This document shows, in pieces, positions 7,155 to 36,619 of a DNA stretch of 38,970 nt (position 1 is the stretch's first letter; the number at the start of each line of letters is the position of its first letter). This stretch comes from Chlorobium sp. (GTDB lineage Bacteria > Bacteroidota > Chlorobiia > Chlorobiales > Chlorobiaceae): NCBI GenBank assembly GCA_005843835.1, contig SZXZ01000086.1:1-38970 (forward strand), written 5' to 3'. The translations under genes and the position numbers were made by a program. The notes below the pieces were generated by a model. The model was not told where the DNA came from and made no database searches. It saw nothing but the letters and a program-made list of their open reading frames with translations.

Positions 7155-8456
7155 ATGAAAAAGCAGGTTGTAATTGTTGGCGGCGGATTTGCAGGGCTTA
7201 ATGCGGCCAGAATCCTGGGCAATAAGAAAGACATTGAGGTTACTCTTATTGACAGGAAAAACTACCACCTGTTCCAACCTCTACTCTACCAGGTAGCTAT
7301 GGCAGCACTTGGAGAGGGCGATATTGCGGCTCCACTCAGGAACATGCTTGCAAATTACCAGAATATAACGGTATTCAAGGGTATTGTAAACAATGTCGAT
7401 ATCGAGAAAAAAATCGTTATTACCGATTTCAGGGACATCCCTTACGATTACCTGATTCTTGCCTGTGGTGTGCAACATCACTATTTTGGTAACAACCAGT
7501 GGGAAGAGTTTGCGCCCGGACTGAAAACTCTTGCACAAGCGAAAGAGATACGCAGAAGGGTCATGGAAGCCTATGAACGTGCTGAAAGAACAAAAGATCC
7601 CGTAGAACGCAAAAAATTGCTGACATTTGTAATTGTTGGTGGCGGTCCTACTGGAGTGGAGCTTGCCGGATCAATAGGCGAAATGAGTCGCTATACCCTT
7701 TCTAAATTTTATCGGAATATTGACCCGAAACTCACCCGAATTTTTATTGTCGAAGCTGCTCCAAGAATTCTTGGTTCATTTGCTCCTGAACTTGCGAGCA
7801 AAGCGACTAGATCCCTTGAGAAGCTAGGTGTTCAGGTTTGGACAAGCAGCATGGTCAGTAACGTTGATACCAACGGGGTACAAATCGGCAAGGAACGGAT
7901 CGAAGCATCTACAGTACTTTGGGCCGCGGGTGTCACTGCTATAGAAATCGGCAAAACGATAGGGTTTGAAACCGATAGGATTGGCAGAATCATCGTTGGT
8001 GAAGACCTTAGCATTCCAGGTCATCCGGAAATATTTGTAGGTGGTGACCTTGCTCATTTTGTTCAAGAAAACGGCATACCTTTACCGGGACTGGCTCCTG
8101 TTGCATTACAACAGGGAAGAGTCATCGGAAAAAATATTGTCCTTGATCTGAAAACAAAAGCCAGAAAGCTATTCAGGTACAGGGATAAGGGACAGATGGC
8201 AACAATAGGAAAAAACAAGGCTATTGTTGAGTTTGGAAGCATTAAGTTTGATGGCATTTTAGCCTGGTTTACCTGGCTTCTAGTCCACATCTACTTCCTG
8301 ACAAGTTTCCGGCACCGGGTCTTTGTACTGCTGCAGTGGGGATGGTCTTATTTCACATTCAGCTATGGGGCGCGCCTGATTGTGAACAAGGAGTGGAGGT
8401 TCTATCCTGATCCCGACCCATGTGCAAACCGTTCAGATAAAGACGGGCGGGAATGA
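7155..8456 (+). CDS. ndh: Type II NADH:quinone oxidoreductase (NDH-2)
   Basis: A single-subunit FAD enzyme that passes electrons from NADH to the quinone pool without pumping protons. With the start at ATG 7155 it has 433 residues. It begins with the FAD-binding strand VVIVGGGFAG (5-14), has a second dinucleotide fold FVIVGGGPTGVELAG (about residues 154-168) and the FAD-contacting VGGDLAHF (about 295-302). The C-terminal part is aromatic and hydrophobic (FTWLLVHIYFLTSF), as expected for membrane attachment. The frame stays open upstream to about 7080, but ATG 7155 is preferred because the protein then starts directly at the FAD fold and AGGA lies just upstream. Its stop overlaps the next ATG by 4 bases. 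Sulfide:quinone reductase relatives are the main alternative, but their conserved cysteines were not seen. Confidence 0.9.
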   Translation: MKKQVVIVGGGFAGLNAARILGNKKDIEVTLIDRKNYHLFQPLLYQVAMAALGEGDIAAPLRNMLANYQNITVFKGIVNNVDIEKKIVITDFRDIPYDYLILACGVQHHYFGNNQWEEFAPGLKTLAQAKEIRRRVMEAYERAERTKDPVERKKLLTFVIVGGGPTGVELAGSIGEMSRYTLSKFYRNIDPKLTRIFIVEAAPRILGSFAPELASKATRSLEKLGVQVWTSSMVSNVDTNGVQIGKERIEASTVLWAAGVTAIEIGKTIGFETDRIGRIIVGEDLSIPGHPEIFVGGDLAHFVQENGIPLPGLAPVALQQGRVIGKNIVLDLKTKARKLFRYRDKGQMATIGKNKAIVEFGSIKFDGILAWFTWLLVHIYFLTSFRHRVFVLLQWGWSYFTFSYGARLIVNKEWRFYPDPDPCANRSDKDGRE

Positions 8457-13194: not shown

Positions 13195-13941
13195 TTATTC
13201 CGATTTACCGGTTCCAAGAGTATGTATTATGTAGAATGCAGCTTCATCAATGGTATAGTTGAATCTATCAACCCGACTTGTAAAAACGTTATAGGCAACA
13301 ATTCCCATAATACCGCCAAGTATACCAAGCGCTGTATTAAAAAGAGCCTCGGAGATACCCAGCGATAGCTGAACCGCGTCTGGAGCTCCGCTGGTTGCCA
13401 TAGCGGCAAAAGCGCGAATCATACCAAGAGTAGTTCCCAAGAGGCCTACCATTGTCGATATTGAAGCAATAGTGGATATCGATACAAGATTTTTCTCCAA
13501 AAGAGGCATTTCCATAATCGTAGCTTCCTCAACGGCCTTTTCCATCTCGCTGATCTTTTTATCCCGATCGGTCACATTATATTGGGATAGTTTTTTATAC
13601 CGGTCAAGTACGGCGCGAAGAACAGCTGCCAGTGAGCTCTGATGGTCGTCACATTTCGCAATGGCCTGATCAATAAAGCCGTTATCAATATCCTGCTTGA
13701 GACCATGAACAAATTCCGGAATATTCCCTTTCCCCGAAGCTTTGTTCAAAGCAATAATACGTTCCACAGTGTAAGCAACGACCATCAGAATCAATGCCAT
13801 AAGCACAGAGACTACCAGCCCTCCGTTAAAAACGGCATGAAACATTGAACCCGGAGGAGTGCTGCCCATCCAAAAATAAAATCCCAAGGAAACCGAATAG
13901 GTTATTGCAATGAGCAAAGCCGTAAAAAAACCATGTTTCAT
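13195..13941 (-). CDS. exbB: MotA/TolQ/ExbB proton channel protein
   Basis: Proton-conducting subunit of the ExbB-ExbD-TonB motor in the inner membrane. The 248-residue protein has helices at about residues 8-25 and 38-58, a long cytoplasmic loop with charged helices, and a C-terminal double helix region with the family signature STMVGLLGTTLGMIRAF (about 162-178) and GISEALFNTALGILGGIMGIVAYN (about 195-218). It is first in the four-gene minus-strand operon; promoter elements should lie in the 299-base spacer shared with dnaG. Confidence 0.94.
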   Translation of the reverse strand: MKHGFFTALLIAITYSVSLGFYFWMGSTPPGSMFHAVFNGGLVVSVLMALILMVVAYTVERIIALNKASGKGNIPEFVHGLKQDIDNGFIDQAIAKCDDHQSSLAAVLRAVLDRYKKLSQYNVTDRDKKISEMEKAVEEATIMEMPLLEKNLVSISTIASISTMVGLLGTTLGMIRAFAAMATSGAPDAVQLSLGISEALFNTALGILGGIMGIVAYNVFTSRVDRFNYTIDEAAFYIIHTLGTGKSE

Positions 13942-14240
13942 AGAACTCTTATTTGTTTTGACTGACCGGAAGAAAAAAGAGGTATTATTAAACCGCAGTG
14001 TGAAGTTGATGTAGAGTAGCGTGTGTAATACATTATTAAACTATTAATCACCCCTTGCAGGCCCCTTGCAGGAATAGTCCAAACCGTTGAACTTTGAATG
14101 CAACCGCCCTATAAAAAAACAACTTATAAATAACAGGGTTAAATTTAGTAAATAAGCTTCTTATTTTTAAACACTAATCGATTTTATAAAAGAAAAATAC
14201 ACGTGTTCCTGCAACTATATTTAAGTCAAAGATCAGGCAG
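13942..14240. other. Divergent exbB/dnaG spacer with tandem 11-bp repeat
   Basis: This spacer holds promoters for the minus-strand exb operon and for dnaG. Its clearest structure is a perfect tandem duplication of CCCCTTGCAGG (14051-14061 and 14062-14072), about one DNA helical turn per copy and the most GC-rich patch in an otherwise AT-rich stretch. No reading frame is supported. Confidence 0.5.
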
Positions 14241-16136
14241 ATGATCCCTCATTCGATCATTGATGATGTCCGACATGCGGCTGACATTGTTGATATTATA
14301 TCTGATTACCTGACACTTCAGCCTTCAGGCCGCAATTTCAAGGCTCTTTCTCCTTTTACACAGGAGAAAACCCCATCGTTTGTTGTATCACCTGACAAAC
14401 AGATTTACAAGTGTTTTTCGACGGGTAAAGGAGGTAACGTCTTTTCTTTTGTCATGGAAATGGAAAAAGTATCTTTTCTTGAAGCAATCGAACTTGTTGC
14501 CAAGCGAACAGGAATCGATATCAGTCGATTTACTGAAAAAAAAGAGTTCAACCCCGTTCCTGAAGACAGTCGTACCACCACACTTCGATGGGCCGCAATG
14601 TTCTTCCAAAGAACACTGGAAAGTACGTCAGGAAAAATCGGGCATGACTATCTTGTAACCCAGCGAGCACTGTCTGAAAATACCCTCAAATCCTTTGGCC
14701 TTGGCTATGCCCCAGACTCATGGGACACTCTTTTTAACGAAGCAAAGCGAGCAGGCATACCTCAGGAACATCTTTCCGATCTGGGACTTGTCACACAGAA
14801 TAAACAGAAAAATTCCTGGTACGACACATTCCGCAGCAGAGTTATTTTTCCTGTTTTTTCTGTGGGGGGGCAGGTTGTCGGCTTTGGAGGGCGAACCCTG
14901 TTGGATGACCCTCAAACTCCAAAATACCTGAATTCACCTGAAAGCCGTTTGTTTGAAAAATCAAAACTCCTGTATGGACTGCATATAGCAAAAAATGAAA
15001 TCCGACGGAGTGAAACGGCAATCCTTGTTGAAGGATACATGGATGTACTCGCGCTTCATCAGGCAGGAATAAAGAATGCTGTAGCTTCATGTGGCACTTC
15101 CCTGACCCGTTACCAGGCGAAAATCCTGAAACGTCACACAAACCGCGTGCTGTTTATGTACGATGCTGATGCTGCTGGAAAAAAGTCAATGATGACCGGT
15201 CTCGACACGCTCCTTACAGAAGGCATTACCCCCTTTATGGTGATGCTTCCTGACGGTGATGATCCCGACAGTTTTGTTCGGCGTGAAGGCAGGGAAAAAT
15301 TTCTGAAGTTCTCAGAAGAAACGATGCTTTCCTTTCAAGACTTTCAAATCCGCTTTTTTCAGGAAACAGAAAACTTTTCACAGCCCGAGAAAAAATCAAA
15401 AGCAATAAGAGAAATGGCCCATACGATTGCGCTTATTCCGGACCGAATCAAGCAGGAGCTTTATCTGCAGGAATTATCCGGAAAACTATCTATCAGCCAG
15501 CATGCCCTGCACGAGATCCTCGGAAAAGAGCATACTCTCCAAGCAAAAAAAACATCAGCTGAAGAAAGTCGTATTTCGATTCAGCCCCCAAAACAACTAT
15601 CGAAAAAGATTTCTGTGCTGGAAAAAACCTTTTTAAAAGCCCTACTTGAAAGTACAGCGTATGGAAATACTGTGCTTGAATTTGCAGCATCCCATGAAGA
15701 GATGCTCGAATTGCCACACCTTGAGGCTCAGCAGATTTTTACGCACATGATCCGTCGTTACCATGACACATCAGGCAATCCTGAGCAGCACATCGATATT
15801 ACAACTGAAATTAGTCTGTTCAGCAATCCGGAATCAAGGGATCTGGCATCAGGACTATTGATGGACCCTCCGGTCAGCAATAAATGGCTGGAACAAACCG
15901 ATGTCCACGCAGAAAATGCAAAACGGTGTTTGTTAATGTTCCTGGATGCATTCAAAAACCTCATTTTAGAGCCCTTGATCCATCAGAAAAAAACTCTCAC
16001 AGAAAAAATCCGCTGTGAAGATGACTCAAACAGGGAGATTGAGCTTTTGAAAGAGAAAATTGTGCTGGATAAAAAAATCCGCAAAACATCGCTGGATCTT
16101 GATAAGATGATTGCAAAAATAGTTGAAAACAGCTGA
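14241..16136 (+). CDS. dnaG: DNA primase
   Basis: Synthesises RNA primers for replication. The 631-residue protein has the three DnaG parts. The N-terminal domain (1-100) has the CHC2 framework EKTPSFVVSPDKQIYKCF (42-59). The RNA polymerase core has a TOPRIM fold with the catalytic VEGYMDV (about 261-267) and YDADAAGKKS (about 307-316). A C-terminal region (about 450-631) is presumed to bind helicase. In the zinc ribbon, three of four usual ligands are replaced: Ser37, Thr40 and Thr61, leaving only Cys58. Similar loss (SPFT...FSxGKGG) is, as I recall, usual in Bacteroidetes-lineage primases, so this is probably a functional zinc-less form. The ATG start fits family N-termini; CAGGCAG precedes it. 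Confidence 0.95.
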   Translation: MIPHSIIDDVRHAADIVDIISDYLTLQPSGRNFKALSPFTQEKTPSFVVSPDKQIYKCFSTGKGGNVFSFVMEMEKVSFLEAIELVAKRTGIDISRFTEKKEFNPVPEDSRTTTLRWAAMFFQRTLESTSGKIGHDYLVTQRALSENTLKSFGLGYAPDSWDTLFNEAKRAGIPQEHLSDLGLVTQNKQKNSWYDTFRSRVIFPVFSVGGQVVGFGGRTLLDDPQTPKYLNSPESRLFEKSKLLYGLHIAKNEIRRSETAILVEGYMDVLALHQAGIKNAVASCGTSLTRYQAKILKRHTNRVLFMYDADAAGKKSMMTGLDTLLTEGITPFMVMLPDGDDPDSFVRREGREKFLKFSEETMLSFQDFQIRFFQETENFSQPEKKSKAIREMAHTIALIPDRIKQELYLQELSGKLSISQHALHEILGKEHTLQAKKTSAEESRISIQPPKQLSKKISVLEKTFLKALLESTAYGNTVLEFAASHEEMLELPHLEAQQIFTHMIRRYHDTSGNPEQHIDITTEISLFSNPESRDLASGLLMDPPVSNKWLEQTDVHAENAKRCLLMFLDAFKNLILEPLIHQKKTLTEKIRCEDDSNREIELLKEKIVLDKKIRKTSLDLDKMIAKIVENS

Positions 16137-24017: not shown

Positions 24018-24725
24018 ATGTGCGGACGATTCGGTTTTTTTGAACTCAAGTATTTTATAGAACAGCTTCGGCAGTACGAAATTCCTTTTGGTGATAAGAA
24101 AGCATTAAACTTTACACCAAGCTACAATATTACTCCCGAAACAAATATTGTCATGTTGCAGTGTAACAATGGTAGGTACACCCTCAAACTGGGCCGCTGG
24201 GGCTTAATTCCTCATTGGGTGAAAGGAATGCCTAAAGTGCGACCGATCAACGCGCGCACAGAAACTCTAGAAATAAAATCCTACTTCAGGCACATGTTGA
24301 ACAGGACTCATTGTCTTATCCCTGCCAGCGGATTTTATGAATGGAAAGCTGAAGGATTGAATAAAAAACAACCATACTACATTCATCGGGCAGACGGCAA
24401 GCCTATGGCTTTTGCCGGTCTGTGGGATAGTTGGCAGGCACAGGAAATAAATGAGTTACCAATTGTATCATGCGCCATTGTAACCACAGCGTCGAATCAT
24501 GAGATGAAGTTTGTTCACGATCGTATGCCGATTATCCTTGAGCCTGAACAGTGGAAATCATGGCTGAATGCTGATGTAACGGATACCAGAAAATTATTGG
24601 TGCCTTCCAAGGACGGAGCACTTGCTCTTTATCCAGTCTCTACTCAAGTCAATAATCCAAAATATATCAGTCATGACTGCATCAAGCAATTGAACGTTAA
24701 GCAAAAAGGCAACATCGAAAGATAA
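24018..24725 (+). CDS. SRAP-domain protein (HMCES/YedK family)
   Basis: Protects abasic sites in single-stranded DNA by forming a covalent DNA-protein link. The 235-residue protein keeps every catalytic feature: Cys2 exposed after Met removal (MCGRF), Asn78 in RPINARTET, Glu108 in GFYEW, and His167 in HDRMP. WGLIPHWVKG (61-70) is also typical. Conservation of the Cys2 start fixes the start at 24018. It is alone on its strand behind a promoter with a palindrome, so it could be damage-regulated; that is inference. Confidence 0.94.
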   Translation: MCGRFGFFELKYFIEQLRQYEIPFGDKKALNFTPSYNITPETNIVMLQCNNGRYTLKLGRWGLIPHWVKGMPKVRPINARTETLEIKSYFRHMLNRTHCLIPASGFYEWKAEGLNKKQPYYIHRADGKPMAFAGLWDSWQAQEINELPIVSCAIVTTASNHEMKFVHDRMPIILEPEQWKSWLNADVTDTRKLLVPSKDGALALYPVSTQVNNPKYISHDCIKQLNVKQKGNIER

Positions 24726-25636: not shown

Positions 25637-26248
25637 ATGGATACTCCTGTAAACATACTCGCAATAGTCGGGAGCTACAGAAAAGCGGGCATTATCGAAC
25701 GAGCGGTCGACGAAATCCTATCCGCAGCAGGAAAGGCAGGTGCTGTGACCCGTAAAATCACTTTGATTGATAAAAATCTAGCATTCTGTACAAACTGCCG
25801 AAGTTGTACCCAGGTAGCTGGCGACCACTTTGGAGTTTGCGTCCTTGATGATGATATGACCTCTCTTTTGCAGGAAGTGAATCATGCAGATGCAATTATT
25901 CTTGCATCACCTATGAATGCAGGCACTGTCACAGCTGTGATGAAAACTTTTATTGAACGTCTTGTCTGTACGGCTTACTGGCCTTGGGGTGCCCCAGGCC
26001 CAAAGGCTCGTCGTCCTGAAAAATCAAAACGAGCGGTACTTGTTGCATCTTCAGCTGCCCCGGGTATAATTGCCAGATTGACTGGAGATGTGACGAAACG
26101 ACTTGAATCTGCAGCAAATATGCTGGGTGCAAAAACAATCGGAACGCTCTTTATTGGGCTTGCGGCACAACAACAGCATCAAGAACTGAGCAAGAGAATC
26201 ATTATTAAGGCCCGGAAACTTGGTCAAAAACTGGCTGTCCACAATTGA
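25637..26248 (+). CDS. NADPH-dependent FMN reductase / iron-sulfur flavoprotein-like
   Basis: A 203-residue flavodoxin-like protein. It starts with the FMN-phosphate loop AIVGSYRKAG (9-18), and carries ILASPMNAGTVTAVMKTFIERL (about residues 89-110) of the FMN reductase family. Cysteines at 51, 54, 57 and 68 (CTNCRSC plus one) give CX2CX2CX10C, close to but wider than the 4Fe-4S motif of archaeal and bacterial iron-sulfur flavoproteins. It could carry electrons from ferredoxin or NAD(P)H; partner unknown. It has its own promoter and is 251 bases from the similar next gene. Confidence 0.78.
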   Translation: MDTPVNILAIVGSYRKAGIIERAVDEILSAAGKAGAVTRKITLIDKNLAFCTNCRSCTQVAGDHFGVCVLDDDMTSLLQEVNHADAIILASPMNAGTVTAVMKTFIERLVCTAYWPWGAPGPKARRPEKSKRAVLVASSAAPGIIARLTGDVTKRLESAANMLGAKTIGTLFIGLAAQQQHQELSKRIIIKARKLGQKLAVHN

Positions 26249-26499: not shown

Positions 26500-27135
26500 A
26501 TGAAGGTTATAGCGATTAATGGAAGCCCAAAAGAGAATGGGAACACCTTTCACGCGCTGACAGGCGTTGGCAAGCAATTGCTGGAAAACAGCATTGAGTT
26601 TGAAATTATTCATGTTGGAAATAAAGCCGTAAGGGGGTGCTTGGCTTGCGGGACATGCTCCAAAAACAAAGATGAAAAATGCAGTATAAGCAACGATCCG
26701 GTAAATGACTGGATTCAGCAGATTAAAACTGCTGATGGCCTCATTCTGGCATCACCTGTTTATTATGCCGGCATTGCGGGGACTATGAAATGTTTTCTTG
26801 ACAGGGCTTTTTATGTCGCGGGAAGTAATGGTGGGTTGTTTCGCCAGAAGGTTGCAGCTGCTGTAGTTGCCGTTCGCCGTACAGGAGGCTCTACAACATT
26901 TGACAGCCTGAACCATTATCTGACCTATTCAGAGATGATTCTTGCAACCTCAAATTACTGGAATATTGCCCATGGTACTACCCCGGGTGAAGCGTTACAG
27001 GATAAAGAAGGATTGCAGATTATGGATGTACTTGGTCGCAATATGGCATGGCTGCTCAAAATGCGTGAAGTCACAAAAGCAACACTGCCGAACCCGGCAA
27101 CAGTTACCAAAATTTATACAAATTTCATCAGGTAG
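26500..27135 (+). CDS. Iron-sulfur flavoprotein / NADPH-dependent FMN reductase family
   Basis: A 211-residue flavodoxin-fold protein beginning with the FMN loop INGSPKENGNT (6-16). Cysteines 47, 50, 53 and 61 give CX2CX2CX7C, matching the compact 4Fe-4S motif of iron-sulfur flavoproteins. ILASPVYYAGIAGTMKCFLDR (about 82-102) is the family's FMN-contact region. It probably shuttles one electron between its cluster and FMN; physiological partners are unknown. It resembles the upstream flavoprotein only in overall design, so a recent tandem duplication is unlikely. Confidence 0.85.
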   Translation: MKVIAINGSPKENGNTFHALTGVGKQLLENSIEFEIIHVGNKAVRGCLACGTCSKNKDEKCSISNDPVNDWIQQIKTADGLILASPVYYAGIAGTMKCFLDRAFYVAGSNGGLFRQKVAAAVVAVRRTGGSTTFDSLNHYLTYSEMILATSNYWNIAHGTTPGEALQDKEGLQIMDVLGRNMAWLLKMREVTKATLPNPATVTKIYTNFIR

Positions 27136-27665: not shown

Positions 27666-27697
27666 GAAAAAGCCCCTTCACACAATGGGGCTTTTTC
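27666..27697. terminator. Bidirectional terminator
   Basis: A perfect 11-bp stem GAAAAAGCCCC / GGGGCTTTTTC with a 10-base loop lies between the convergent chlorosome and racemase genes, with T-runs for both strands. Confidence 0.88.
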
Positions 27698-27699
27698 TC

Positions 27700-28557
27700 T
27701 TATTTTTCACCAAGGGAATACTTTACAGCGGCTTCAGCATGTATTGCGGTCGTATCAAAAACCGGAACACTTACATCTTCCTGCTTGACCAGAAGAGGAA
27801 TTTCTGTACACCCCAGTATAACACCTTCTGCACGGCTTTCTTTCAAGAGGCGGTTGATAATGTAGATGAAGTGATCCCTGGATTCCCTATTTATTTTTTC
27901 GGCACACAATTCATCAAAAATCACGGAGTTGATATAGTTGCGTTCTGCCTGATTCGGCAGAATAACTTTGAGACCATAGTTTTTCTCAAGACGGTCCCTA
28001 TAGAAATTATTTTCCATTGTGTACTTCGTACCCAGTAGTACTATGGAATTGAGGCCTTTCTCTTTAATTTTTCGGCCTGTTGCATCAGCGATATGCAGGA
28101 CAGGAATTTTAACATTATCCTGGATATCTTCGGCACTTGAGTTCATAGTGTTAGAGGCTATGACAATAAAATCCGCACCACCGTTTTTCAACCGTTGAGC
28201 CGCATCGATCATTATTTTTCTCAGTGGCCTCCAGTCTCCCTTCTCGGCCAGCCGTTCCTCTTTTGAGAATTCTCCAAACTCAATTGAATACATCAGGATT
28301 TGAGCTGAATTCAAACCCCCGAGCTTATCTCTGACCATCTGATTCATGAGACGATAATATTCCAGCGAAGAAACCCAACTGACTCCTCCTATTATGCCGA
28401 TTGTTTTAATCTGAGGCACGCTTACAGAAGCAATGCCTGACTGCCTTGAGATGCTCGGTCTTTCTTTGGCTGCAACATTGAAAACAAAACTACAGTTCAT
28501 TGCTATAGCTGTGAAAATCAAGATCAGCAGACCTTTTGGACTAAACTGTGTTTTCAT
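27700..28557 (-). CDS. Exported aspartate/glutamate racemase homologue
   Basis: Matches the YgeA/RacD-type racemase fold throughout: IGIIGGVSWVSSLEYYRLMN (53-72), IPVLHIADATGRKI, LLGTKYTMENNFY and the second catalytic cysteine in GCTEI (Cys250). Two things are odd. An N-terminal Sec signal peptide (about 1-30, GLLILIFTAIAMNCSFVFNVAA) directs it out of the cytoplasm. And the first active-site block reads ASNTMN (134-139) where active enzymes have C-T-N-T-M-H, so the first catalytic Cys and the His are missing. It may be a periplasmic D-amino-acid enzyme with changed chemistry or a binding protein. Confidence 0.82.
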   Translation of the reverse strand: MKTQFSPKGLLILIFTAIAMNCSFVFNVAAKERPSISRQSGIASVSVPQIKTIGIIGGVSWVSSLEYYRLMNQMVRDKLGGLNSAQILMYSIEFGEFSKEERLAEKGDWRPLRKIMIDAAQRLKNGGADFIVIASNTMNSSAEDIQDNVKIPVLHIADATGRKIKEKGLNSIVLLGTKYTMENNFYRDRLEKNYGLKVILPNQAERNYINSVIFDELCAEKINRESRDHFIYIINRLLKESRAEGVILGCTEIPLLVKQEDVSVPVFDTTAIHAEAAVKYSLGEK

Positions 28558-28995: not shown

Positions 28996-31110
28996 ATGCA
29001 AAAAAAAATAACATCCCTTAAAGCACTGACCAGAAATTTATGGTGGTCGTGGGATACAGAAGCAAAACAAATTTTTGAAGAGCTTTCACCCTTGCTTTGG
29101 GAAAGAAATAATCACAACCCCGTAGAGCTTTTACGGCATATATCCAATGATGAACTGGAAGCTCGATGTATAGGAGAATTGGGCGACAAAATAGACCGGG
29201 CCTTTTCTCGCTTTACTGCCTACCTTAACGATACGAATACATGGGCAGCAAATAACGCCAGAGAAATTACTGAAAATCCTGTCGCTTATTTCAGTGCGGA
29301 ATTCGGTATTCATGAGAGCGTTAGAATTTATTCAGGCGGACTCGGTGTTCTTTCTGGTGACCACTTGAAATCGGCCAGTGACCTGGGCATTAACTTTATA
29401 GGTATCACCTTATTTTATAAAGAAGGGTATTTTCGCCAGAACCTCAATCAAGACGGTTGGCAGAAAGAGGACTATCCTCTTCAACTTTCAGAAAACCTCC
29501 CTATAGAAAAAGTAACAGACCCTGACGGCAATGATCTGATTATTTCGGTCAATATTGCTCAAAGTGAAGTATTTGCACAGGCTTGGAAACTCAAAGTAGG
29601 CAGAGCAACACTTTTTCTGCTTGATACTAATATTCCGGCCAATGAATCACACTATCGCGATATCTGTTGCAGAGTCTATGGTGGCGACCAGAACATGCGC
29701 ATAAATCAGGAAATTATTCTCGGTATTGGGGGTGTGAAACTTCTTGACCAAATCGGCATAAAACCGATTGTCTATCATATGAACGAAGGCCACTCCGCAT
29801 TTCTCACGCTCGAACTGCTCGCTAAAGAGCTTAGCAAGGGAGTCTCGCAAAAAGAAGCAATAGAAACTGTCCGTTCACTCTGCGTCTTCACAACGCATAC
29901 CCCTGTTCCTGCCGGCCATGACCGCTTTTCATGTGACATGATGCATTACACTTTTGACAAATACCTGACCACAATAGGATTGAACTTCGATGACCTGATG
30001 AAGCTTGGATCAGAAGACAAAAGTAATATATACGGACTTTTCACCATGACGGTGCTTGCCCTGAATCTGTCTCGAGCTGCAAACGGCGTTTCCAAACTTC
30101 ACGGAGAAGTTTCACGCACTATGTGGCAGCACCTATTTCCAGGCAAAGAGGTTTCTGAGGTTCCTATCGGTCATATCACCAATGGCATCCATGCCAGCAG
30201 CTGGACGAGCGGTCATACTGACAATTTCTGGAAAAAATTTACCGGTAGTGTTGACGATATGAGCCTCTCAACCGAGACCGCTGAAGCCGTTCTGGCAAAA
30301 GTCACGGATGAGGAGCTATGGTCACTGCGTTACAGCCTGAAACGCAATCTTATCGACTTCATGGACAAATATCTGAGCAATCAACTTTTTCACCAGCATA
30401 CCAATTCCATCTATAGTGAATACGATGCGTTGCGTTCAAAAACCAATACGTTTTCTCCTGATGTTCTTACTATAGGGTTTGCAAGACGTTTTGCTACATA
30501 CAAGCGCGCTCCACTTGTTTTTAGAGATCTTGAACGACTTGACAAAATTATCAATCATTCTTCAAGACCATTGCAGATAGTTTTTGCCGGAAAAGCACAT
30601 CCGCATGATGATGCGGGAAAAGACTATATCCGACAGATAATTCACCACTCACGCCGACCAGAATTCAGTGGCAAGGTTGTTTTCCTTGAAAACTACAACC
30701 TTGGTGTTGCAAAGCGTATGGTGGCGGGCGTTGATGTCTGGTTAAACACACCAGTCAGACCAATGGAAGCAAGCGGTACTTCGGGTGAAAAAACTGTACT
30801 TCACGGGGGCCTGAATTTCAGCGTCCTTGATGGATGGTGGCCTGAAGCCTATAATGGCAATAATGGTTTTGCCATTGGTAATGGTGAATCTTTTGAAAAC
30901 AGTGAAGAACAGGATAGTTTCGATGCAGAGCAGTTGTACTCTGTTCTCGAAAAACAGATTATCCCTGCATATTACGAACGTAACGAGATGAACATACCTT
31001 TACAGTGGATTAAAAAAATACGTAATGCGATTGCAACCATTGCACCGGTTTACAATACCCACAGAATGGTAAAGGACTATGCGACCTGCTACTATCTGAA
31101 CAGAAAATAG
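28996..31110 (+). CDS. glgP: Alpha-glucan (glycogen) phosphorylase, short GT35 type
   Basis: Releases glucose-1-phosphate from glycogen with PLP as cofactor. The 704-residue chain and N-terminus (NLWWSWDTEA, with AYFSAEFGIHESV and YSGGLGVLSGDHLKSASDLG) are typical of the TIGR02094 branch rather than E. coli GlgP. The PLP-binding lysine is Lys599 in EASGTSGEKTVLHGGLNFSVLDGWW. Other family blocks include HMNEGHSAFLTLE and TTHTPVPAGHDRF. Together with the nearby phosphofructokinase it fits dark glycogen breakdown in a phototroph. Transcribed alone, with a long upstream region. Confidence 0.94.
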   Translation: MQKKITSLKALTRNLWWSWDTEAKQIFEELSPLLWERNNHNPVELLRHISNDELEARCIGELGDKIDRAFSRFTAYLNDTNTWAANNAREITENPVAYFSAEFGIHESVRIYSGGLGVLSGDHLKSASDLGINFIGITLFYKEGYFRQNLNQDGWQKEDYPLQLSENLPIEKVTDPDGNDLIISVNIAQSEVFAQAWKLKVGRATLFLLDTNIPANESHYRDICCRVYGGDQNMRINQEIILGIGGVKLLDQIGIKPIVYHMNEGHSAFLTLELLAKELSKGVSQKEAIETVRSLCVFTTHTPVPAGHDRFSCDMMHYTFDKYLTTIGLNFDDLMKLGSEDKSNIYGLFTMTVLALNLSRAANGVSKLHGEVSRTMWQHLFPGKEVSEVPIGHITNGIHASSWTSGHTDNFWKKFTGSVDDMSLSTETAEAVLAKVTDEELWSLRYSLKRNLIDFMDKYLSNQLFHQHTNSIYSEYDALRSKTNTFSPDVLTIGFARRFATYKRAPLVFRDLERLDKIINHSSRPLQIVFAGKAHPHDDAGKDYIRQIIHHSRRPEFSGKVVFLENYNLGVAKRMVAGVDVWLNTPVRPMEASGTSGEKTVLHGGLNFSVLDGWWPEAYNGNNGFAIGNGESFENSEEQDSFDAEQLYSVLEKQIIPAYYERNEMNIPLQWIKKIRNAIATIAPVYNTHRMVKDYATCYYLNRK

Positions 31111-35413: not shown

Positions 35414-36619
35414 GTGAAAAAAATTGGCATTCTTACCAGTGGCGGAGATTGTGGAGGGCTTAATGCTGTGCTTAAAGGTGCGGCTATGATGGCTTTATCA
35501 AAAGACCTTGAACTGTATATCATTCCAAACGGCTATGCCGGGCTTTACAACCTTATTGATCAAGAGACCATTGTCCGTCTTGACCAGGATCGTCTTGATC
35601 GGTTCGACGCAAGTTTTGCCGGTTCCGAAGCTGGACATTCGAGGGTTAAAATCAAGGCCATCAGCAATCCTGAAAAGTACAACCGTATCAAGCTCGGTAT
35701 GAAAAAATTTGAACTTGATGCTCTTGTTATCAGTGGTGGCGATGATTCAGGCAGTGTGATGGTTGATCTTAATCAAAATGGCATTCAATGCATCCATGCT
35801 CCGAAAACAATGGATCTTGACCTGCAGACGTATTCGGTAGGCGGCGATTCAACCATCAACCGTATTGCCCAGTTTGTACATGACCTGAAAACAACCGGCA
35901 AAACCCATAACAGGGTACTTGTTACCGAAGTATTCGGCCGATACGCCGGTCATACCGCATTTAGAAGTGGTATAGCTGCTGAAGCTGACTGTATTCTTAT
36001 TCCTGAAATTCCTGTTGACTGGGATATCGTTTACGAACATCTTGCTGAACGATTTACCCGCAGAATACGAGATAGCGATGTCCATAGTGGAACCTACACT
36101 GTTGTAGTCGCTGAAGGCTTGAAAAATGCCGATGGCACCGATATTGTTGATGAATCAGCTGGTATTGACGCTTTTGGGCATAAAAAGCTTGCAGGAGCAG
36201 GAAAATTCACCTGCCAGCAAATTCAGAAAAGAATGAAAGCTGATCCTGCAATGCCTATTTTTATGAAAGAAACCGGCATGTTCGTCGAAGGGATTTATGA
36301 AATTCCTGAAGTTCGTGAAATCCATCCCGGTCACCTTGTCCGTTCTGGCAACTCATCGGCATATGACATTAATTTCGGCTTTGAAGCAGGTGCTTCTGCC
36401 ATTCTGCTGCTGCTTGAGGGCAAGACAGGTGTAACAGTTTCAAAAGTTAAGGGTCGCAAGATCGAGTTTATTGAATCAAGTAAGGCTATCGTTCAACGCC
36501 ATGTCGATCTCGAACATGTCGCATTGTATGAATCGCTAGGTATCTGCTTCGGACGAAGCCCAGCAATTTTCGAGCCTATTCTTCGTGAGGTTGAAGGAGT
36601 TTACGAAAGAATATATTAA
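35414..36619 (+). CDS. pfkA: 6-phosphofructokinase, PPi-dependent signature
   Basis: Phosphorylates fructose 6-phosphate. The GTG start at 35414 is backed by AGGAGAG 8 bases upstream. The 401-residue protein starts with the family block ILTSGGDCGGLNAV (6-19). Two positions that mark phosphoryl-donor use read as PPi type: GGDDS (108-112, Asp111 in place of ATP-type Gly) and PKTMD (130-134, Lys131 in place of Gly). The catalytic Asp134 and Asp136 are present, though the usual Asn between them is Leu135. EVFGRYAGHTA replaces the usual MGR. PPi use is inference from family signatures. Confidence 0.9.
   Translation: MKKIGILTSGGDCGGLNAVLKGAAMMALSKDLELYIIPNGYAGLYNLIDQETIVRLDQDRLDRFDASFAGSEAGHSRVKIKAISNPEKYNRIKLGMKKFELDALVISGGDDSGSVMVDLNQNGIQCIHAPKTMDLDLQTYSVGGDSTINRIAQFVHDLKTTGKTHNRVLVTEVFGRYAGHTAFRSGIAAEADCILIPEIPVDWDIVYEHLAERFTRRIRDSDVHSGTYTVVVAEGLKNADGTDIVDESAGIDAFGHKKLAGAGKFTCQQIQKRMKADPAMPIFMKETGMFVEGIYEIPEVREIHPGHLVRSGNSSAYDINFGFEAGASAILLLLEGKTGVTVSKVKGRKIEFIESSKAIVQRHVDLEHVALYESLGICFGRSPAIFEPILREVEGVYERIY

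Follow-up and report, generated by a model that had tools for sequence, protein, structure and literature searches.

A putatively exported Asp/Glu-racemase homologue with a Ser/Cys active site, shared by Chlorobium and methane-cycling archaea

The window, by which we mean the whole 38,970-nucleotide stretch of Chlorobium sp. DNA analysed here (contig SZXZ01000086.1 of assembly GCA_005843835.1), carries on its minus strand an open reading frame, 27700-28557 with the stop codon included, that encodes a 285-residue homologue of the Asp/Glu racemases. The features of the locus are as follows.

27700..28557, minus strand: coding sequence of the Asp/Glu-racemase homologue, putatively exported (profile and sequence comparison)
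28468..28557, minus strand: putative signal peptide, residues 1-30, MKTQFSPKGLLILIFTAIAMNCSFVFNVAA (hydropathy plus an alignment of the orthologues' N-termini; cleavage site placed by eye)
28255..28263, minus strand: three-residue insertion, about residues 99-101 (alignment A1)
28141..28158, minus strand: active-site block 1, ASNTMN, residues 134-139 (alignment to EcL-DER)
27799..27813, minus strand: active-site block 2, GCTEI, residues 249-253 (alignment to EcL-DER)
27666..27697, no strand assigned: 11-pair hairpin, GAAAAAGCCCC...GGGGCTTTTTC, right behind the stop codon (fold energy)

The protein is a true member of PF01177 (137 bits against a cut-off of 31 bits), its sole Pfam match at E 0.001, and no alanine-racemase-type domain was found in that search. 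As a whole it scores 222.2 bits with the TIGR00035 amino-acid racemase model, over the curated cut-off of 93.1, 256.3 bits with the YgeA equivalog PRK10200/NF007569, below the curated cut-off of 417, and 44.9 bits with the MurI glutamate racemase model TIGR00067, below the cut-off of 146.65. In its own genome, which is 88.74% complete, it is the single TIGR00035 member over the cut-off; PF01177 finds there one further protein over the cut-off, a MurI-like one, and one weak match below it. The nearest solved relatives by sequence are 3ojc and the E. coli enzyme EcL-DER (YgeA). The AlphaFold model has a mean pLDDT of 86.4, being poor over residues 1-50 (block means of 47-59 over residues 1-40), at 71-75 over residues 91-110 and good elsewhere, and its residues 50-285 superpose on EcL-DER (5ell_B) with Z 34.5 and an rmsd of 1.2 over 232 residues at 46% identity. 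Arylmalonate decarboxylase (3eis_D; Z 16.5, 16% identity) is also in the fold list, far below the racemases.

The hairpin behind the gene, with fold energies of -17.9 kcal/mol on the minus and -18.5 kcal/mol on the plus strand, is likely a terminator usable on both strands; its loop of 10 kept it out of a scan with a loop limit of 8. Rfam gave no match in the window. Convergent with the racemase gene lie two adjoining FMN_red (PF03358) flavodoxin-fold genes (25637-26248 and 26500-27135), a pair not found in the other loci compared, and divergent from it lies an alpha-glucan phosphorylase gene with DUF3417 (28996-31110; TIGR02094, 855 bits). Across the 13 loci compared, four of them on contigs below 9 kb so that synteny is only partly testable, the racemase is the only family common to all, and five other families each occur in two loci. 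An operon-based assignment of function was rejected, as no neighbour is common to more than two of the 13 loci and none hints at a pathway. One of the shared families, represented by 24018-24725 (starting MCGRFGF) and by positions 365-1072 of locus L124 in genome G201 (58% identity over 226 aa), lies within a few kb of the racemase in both and is the only neighbour common to the window and another genus member. Phosphofructokinase-like genes (window 35414-36619 and 13276-14517 of the Methanophagales contig L066; 54% identity over 390 aa) lie some 4-7 kb from the racemase on these two contigs only, among the loci compared, probably by coincidence.

Residues 133-143 of the translation read IASNTMNSSAE. 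Aligned to the EcL-DER block C82-T83-N84-T85-M86-H87, Ala134 stands in the Cys82 column, Ser135 in that of Thr83 and Asn139 in that of His87, and Cys250 of the second block matches the second catalytic cysteine, Cys197, which is thus kept. The catalytic partner of Cys197 in EcL-DER is reported to be Thr83 (PMC12838360, PMC12661438, review PMC8142540); the window protein has Ser135 at this first-face place, and it is in the Ser135 column that two-cysteine PCNT(MH) members (10 of 73 locus rows) carry their first Cys. The protein, with its Ser135/Cys250 pair, therefore does not belong to the two-cysteine PhAspR type, which has Cys on both faces. The preliminary description of this DNA had read both the ASNTMN and the GCTEI block correctly, and the changes of Cys and His that it pointed out are real. 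Its placing of the lost "first catalytic cysteine", on the other hand, was off by one residue: the catalytic column is that of Thr83/Ser135, and the lost Cys is its neighbour. Judged by alignment, the catalytic change is from Thr to Ser, with Cys82 to Ala only a neighbouring change, so that the active site is altered more mildly than had been stated; the replacement of His87 by Asn139 is real and rare. Among the matches listed, the 73 locus rows have Thr (24), Ala (20), Ser (19) or Cys (10) at the Thr83/Ser135 place and His (62) or Asn (11) at that of the block-1 His. The Thr83 place changed at least four times on the tree without PCNT rows, and Ser also occurs there in a separate archaeal group reading GSNTPH (L079-L083), outside the clade of exported-looking proteins described below. 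All 41 aligned bacterial and archaeal rows have Asn136, Thr137, Cys250, Thr251 and Glu252 without exception.

Nor is a Cys at the first place needed for catalysis, as had been supposed: EcL-DER (Thr83/Cys197) and the RacX of Halocola ammonii (Ala79/Cys193) are reported active without one, the latter, with its Ala, racemizing Lys in both directions (PMC12838360). Many members of the family lack a Cys here, which alone does not mean that racemase activity is lost. Ser may nevertheless be a poor residue there, because Ph1733, whose residue there is Ala, reportedly fails to act on Asp and Glu (PMC12838360), a Cys-to-Ser change at the matching place left OpaE 4.8% of its activity (PMC12661438), and replacing Cys by Ser greatly lowered the activity of HisR, a histidine racemase with a different fold (PMC11602996).

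By eye, all seven genus proteins have an N-terminal Lys, then a hydrophobic stretch and then a c-region of small residues, which in six of the seven ends at one aligned place (AAA, SAA, TAA or AVA). The window protein has Lys at the last of these places, so that its likely cleavage site lies one residue earlier (VAA before Lys31) and is, again by eye, the least canonical of the seven. The Sec-type features, a charged n-region, an h-region and a small-residue site, were recognized by hydropathy and alignment; the signal peptide proposed in the preliminary description is thus borne out as a signal-like N-terminus in 7/7 genus rows, from which export would follow. In the full set of rows, the serine clade introduced below, to which the genus proteins belong, was flagged for a hydrophobic N-terminus after the start codon in 12 of its 14 members (11/11 rows with Asn139 and 1/3 Ser-His rows), against none of the 49 rows outside it with a testable N-terminus. 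The alignments of the remaining 10 of the 73 rows begin too deep inside the protein to be tested in this way; L084, one of these, was flagged internally and is not counted. The mean number of core cysteines is 2.08 in the 12 exported-looking rows against 3.82 in 45 other YgeA-type rows (EcL-DER included). This fits an extracytoplasmic place weakly, because the two non-extended Ser-clade rows (also 2) and the two-cysteine rows (2.3) are low as well.

TIGR00035 members over the cut-off occur in 8 of 98 genomes of the order, seven of them in the window's genus (7/65) and none in the sister genus (0/21). The six other genus orthologues are 74-81% identical to the window protein. Orthologues that keep both cysteines had been named as a sign of a local mutation, and none of these does so: 7/7 genus rows read IASNTMNSS and LGCTEIP, an agreement that rules out a sequencing error or a lone local mutation. 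An eighth genus genome holds a decayed remnant of the gene in short pieces with broken frames (L129, G323:C134, 5276-5450). In all 21 pairs within the genus the core gave pN of 0.028-0.100, pS of 0.14-0.70 and omega of 0.034-0.188, values of omega that are rough since most dS are near or above 1; these omega values and the lack of an internal stop rule out that the window copy is a pseudogene. The N-terminal part evolves faster in the genus pairs (pN 0.22-0.47), and a conserved core behind a fast N-terminus is what one would expect of a functional enzyme whose signal peptide is under loose constraint.

Relatives were sought in 394 genomes of the own phylum (drawn evenly), in the 98 of the order and in overlapping archaeal sets of 237, 58 and 294 genomes; other bacterial phyla were covered by a single scan for close relatives. 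The best loci of each survey were read (at most 30, 30, 30, 20 and 25), and the tree and motif counts refer to these, weaker matches, which include second copies in some own-phylum genomes, lying outside them. Of 98 loci with a match, 25 were dropped (one was a MurI, one a distant row, and the others either repeated a gene already included or were fragmentary or split in frame, as is L112 with CSNTMH), leaving 73 rows for the tree and for the motif, N-terminus and Cys counts. EcL-DER was added to them for both trees and the Cys counts, and the second tree was also built without the 10 PCNT rows. The scan for close relatives confirmed six loci: three Chlorobiaceae MAG contigs, carrying the same genes as G141, G201 and G094, and three archaeal loci, from a Methanocellaceae MAG, a Methanothrix MAG and a Methanophagales record. 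G621 (same class as the Methanothrix genome) and G736, G758 and G792 (same phylum as the Methanocellaceae genome) supplied additional relatives. The archaeal relatives are 54-71% identical and join the genus rows in one serine clade. Stray contamination is disfavoured for the exported-looking archaeal copies L100 and L101 because they lie on chromosome-size contigs of 3.16 and 2.54 Mb; L064 and L073, on contigs of about 5 kb, may be contaminants. Plasmid homologues were set aside, all 268 records being below 60% identity; of the two inspected, H1 has an annotated CDS (223 aa) with no extension and H15 no annotated feature. In viral contigs, none of 19 pattern matches was confirmed.

In the tree of 74 rows, 14 Ser rows form one clade (support 100/96), ordered from the outside in as L103 (CSNTMH), L100 (CSNTMH), L066 (ASNTMH) and then 11 rows reading ASNT-M/V/L-N. 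L103, which like L101 sits on a long end branch, has no start codon before the core, L100 has a hydrophobic N-terminus, and so do all 11 Asn rows. In the Methanophagales copy, L066, the frame upstream (8001-8114) encodes a signal-like stretch with a stop directly before the ATG, so that this copy looks secondarily cytoplasmic or reflects an assembly error. A three-residue insertion is present in 14/14 Ser-clade rows and in 0/27 other rows of alignment A1, its exact place being alignment-dependent and within the less well modelled residues 91-110. When the motif and insertion columns are removed the nesting holds (Ser clade 99/90, or 99/93 without L103; L066 with the Asn rows 95/73; Asn rows 99/87). 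The Asn clade consists of four archaeal rows (95/88) and seven bacterial rows (100/100), with L066, L100 and L103 outside both. His to Asn is a single change on the tree, and because it is one event the pairing of export with Asn139 is not independent evidence that the two need each other.

The bacterial rows are thus nested among archaeal ones. Vertical inheritance was rejected both with 23 other same-phylum rows (AU p 2.9e-61) and with the order member L012 alone (AU p 1.5e-16). Holding the archaeal Ser rows together without Chlorobium was disfavoured (AU p 0.033 with L103 and 0.0064 without, for groups chosen post hoc). In composition the gene (GC 0.420) gives no transfer signal against the window (0.424). 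On the strength of the tree, the gene was probably acquired from methane-cycling archaea, and one passage from archaea, the likely donors, into the Chlorobium lineage would be the simplest reading.

Our favoured reading, which we hold with moderate confidence, is that the protein is a PLP-independent racemase of the YgeA/EcL-DER type that works outside the cytoplasm, relies on an unbalanced Ser/Cys pair and reached Chlorobium from archaea. A Sec-type signal peptide would carry it across the membrane to work in the periplasm. There, Cys250 would be the strong base that takes the alpha-proton from one face of the substrate, and Ser135, or a water held by it, would return a proton on the far face as a weak acid or relay in place of Thr83. 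Substrate binding would fall to Asn136 and Thr137, whose counterparts Asn80 and Thr81 are important in RacX (PMC12838360). The unbalanced pair may bias the reaction from L to D, in line with reports that EcL-DER converts L-Asp to D-Asp only (PMC12661438, PMC8142540, PMC12838360) and that an L-to-D bias is seen with EcL-DER on Asp/Glu and with RacX on Lys (PMC12838360). We do not rely on this direction, because YgeA is listed with the same kcat/Km (0.76) for both isomers of homoserine (PMC8142540); the direction in the cell would in any case depend on supply, since a racemase cannot shift the equilibrium. The protein could make or recycle D-amino acids outside the cell. The enzyme would have arisen stepwise in archaea: Ser135 came first, export second, and the replacements of Cys82 by Ala and of His87 by Asn last, followed by a single transfer to the Chlorobium lineage.

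The loss of the conserved His of block 1 counts against the racemase reading. With first-face residues altered and a clade-specific insertion that could reshape the substrate pocket, an exported enzyme of the same fold might use Cys250 alone for another chemistry, as a one-base decarboxylase, lyase or peptide epimerase. Arylmalonate decarboxylase, which appears in the fold list, does work with one Cys. We nevertheless regard this as unlikely, given that the racemases are far nearer to the protein (46%, Z 34.5) than the decarboxylase (16%, Z 16.5) and that Asn-Thr and Cys-Thr-Glu are invariant in 41/41 rows. The same invariance of Cys-Thr-Glu across bacteria and archaea, together with the strong purifying selection on the core in the genus and the want of a conserved partner gene beside the racemase in the 13 loci, makes it quite improbable that the protein is exported but catalytically dead and serves for binding or as an amino-acid sensor, even though two conserved block-1 residues are changed besides Thr to Ser and Ph1733, whose catalytic place holds Ala, reportedly does not act on Asp/Glu (PMC12838360). 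Of the three functions proposed in the preliminary description, the one-base racemase gains ground, with Cys250 kept and EcL-DER and RacX as precedents, and nothing found here favours the lyase or the sensor.

A further doubt concerns the N-terminus, whose hydrophobic helix might be an uncleaved membrane anchor, or the protein might stay inside as an ordinary cytoplasmic-side racemase. The c-region was judged by eye, and the window protein has Lys where the six other orthologues end their small-residue run. The c-regions of those six nevertheless end at one aligned place despite fast N-terminal divergence, as is usual for cleaved signal peptides, and we give this possibility a low probability. 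Taken together, the sequence comparisons argue for export and for a racemase whose asymmetric site has effectively a single cysteine.

Discussions of extracellular D-amino acids often link them to the peptidoglycan wall, and the preliminary description had tied this protein to it. That link found no support here: the same genome encodes a separate two-cysteine MurI-like protein (L135, with CNT and GCTH blocks; PF01177), which we take as the source of D-Glu, and the nearest relatives outside the genus, among the matches listed, are archaeal, belonging to methanogens and Methanophagales. These archaea are not known to have murein. A wall-specific role is disfavoured because the relatives are archaeal. 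The periplasmic Alr of P. putida, for its part, is reported to have no visible effect on peptidoglycan composition and, by the title of the paper, serves amino-acid catabolism (PMC6034422). We therefore put forward, tentatively and at somewhat less than even chances, an extracytoplasmic, cofactor-free Ser/Cys racemase family that would have originated in methane-cycling archaea and later reached green sulfur bacteria, making or salvaging D-amino acids outside the cell even where there is no peptidoglycan wall. If this is true, a cofactor-free racemase outside the membrane of phototrophs and of murein-less archaea would suggest that D-amino acids outside the cell serve some other purpose. The natural series CTNTMH, CSNTMH, ASNTMH, ASNTMN would also make it possible to ask what part the second acid-base residue plays in setting racemization rate and direction. 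Among the matches listed from the open-licence literature there is no report of a signal-peptide-bearing Asp/Glu-type racemase, nor of D-amino-acid racemases in Chlorobium, which is weak evidence of absence; passages of a paper on a Shigella aspartate racemase (PMC6980539) contain nothing on export or catalytic residues, and the term "signal peptide" occurs 0 times in the text of the RacX paper (PMC12838360).

Set beside known systems, the protein is ordinary in family and fold but unusual in its putative location and in belonging to a clade of two domains of life with a stepwise-altered active site. V. cholerae BsrV is reportedly a broad-spectrum racemase working in the periplasm; it and the Alr of P. 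putida, likewise a broad-spectrum enzyme, are PLP-dependent proteins of the alanine-racemase type, whereas the window protein has only PF01177 among Pfam families. Alr is a racemase reported to work in the periplasm (PMC6034422), as the window protein would. MurI shares the PF01177 superfamily and the fold, the difference being that the window protein falls below the TIGR00067 cut-off. Like the window protein, RacX has a one-cysteine site (Ala79/Cys193); it is independent of PLP and acts on Lys both ways with a kinetic L-to-D bias, and differs in having Ala at the first place where the window protein has Ser (PMC12838360). E. coli EcL-DER/YgeA (PDB 5ell, 5elm, 5hra) shares the fold, Asn-Thr, Cys197 as the counterpart of Cys250 and the want of a Cys at the first catalytic place (Thr83 there, Ser135 here); the window protein differs from it in the residues at the places of Thr83 (Ser), Cys82 (Ala) and His87 (Asn), in the three-residue insertion and in the signal-like N-terminus.
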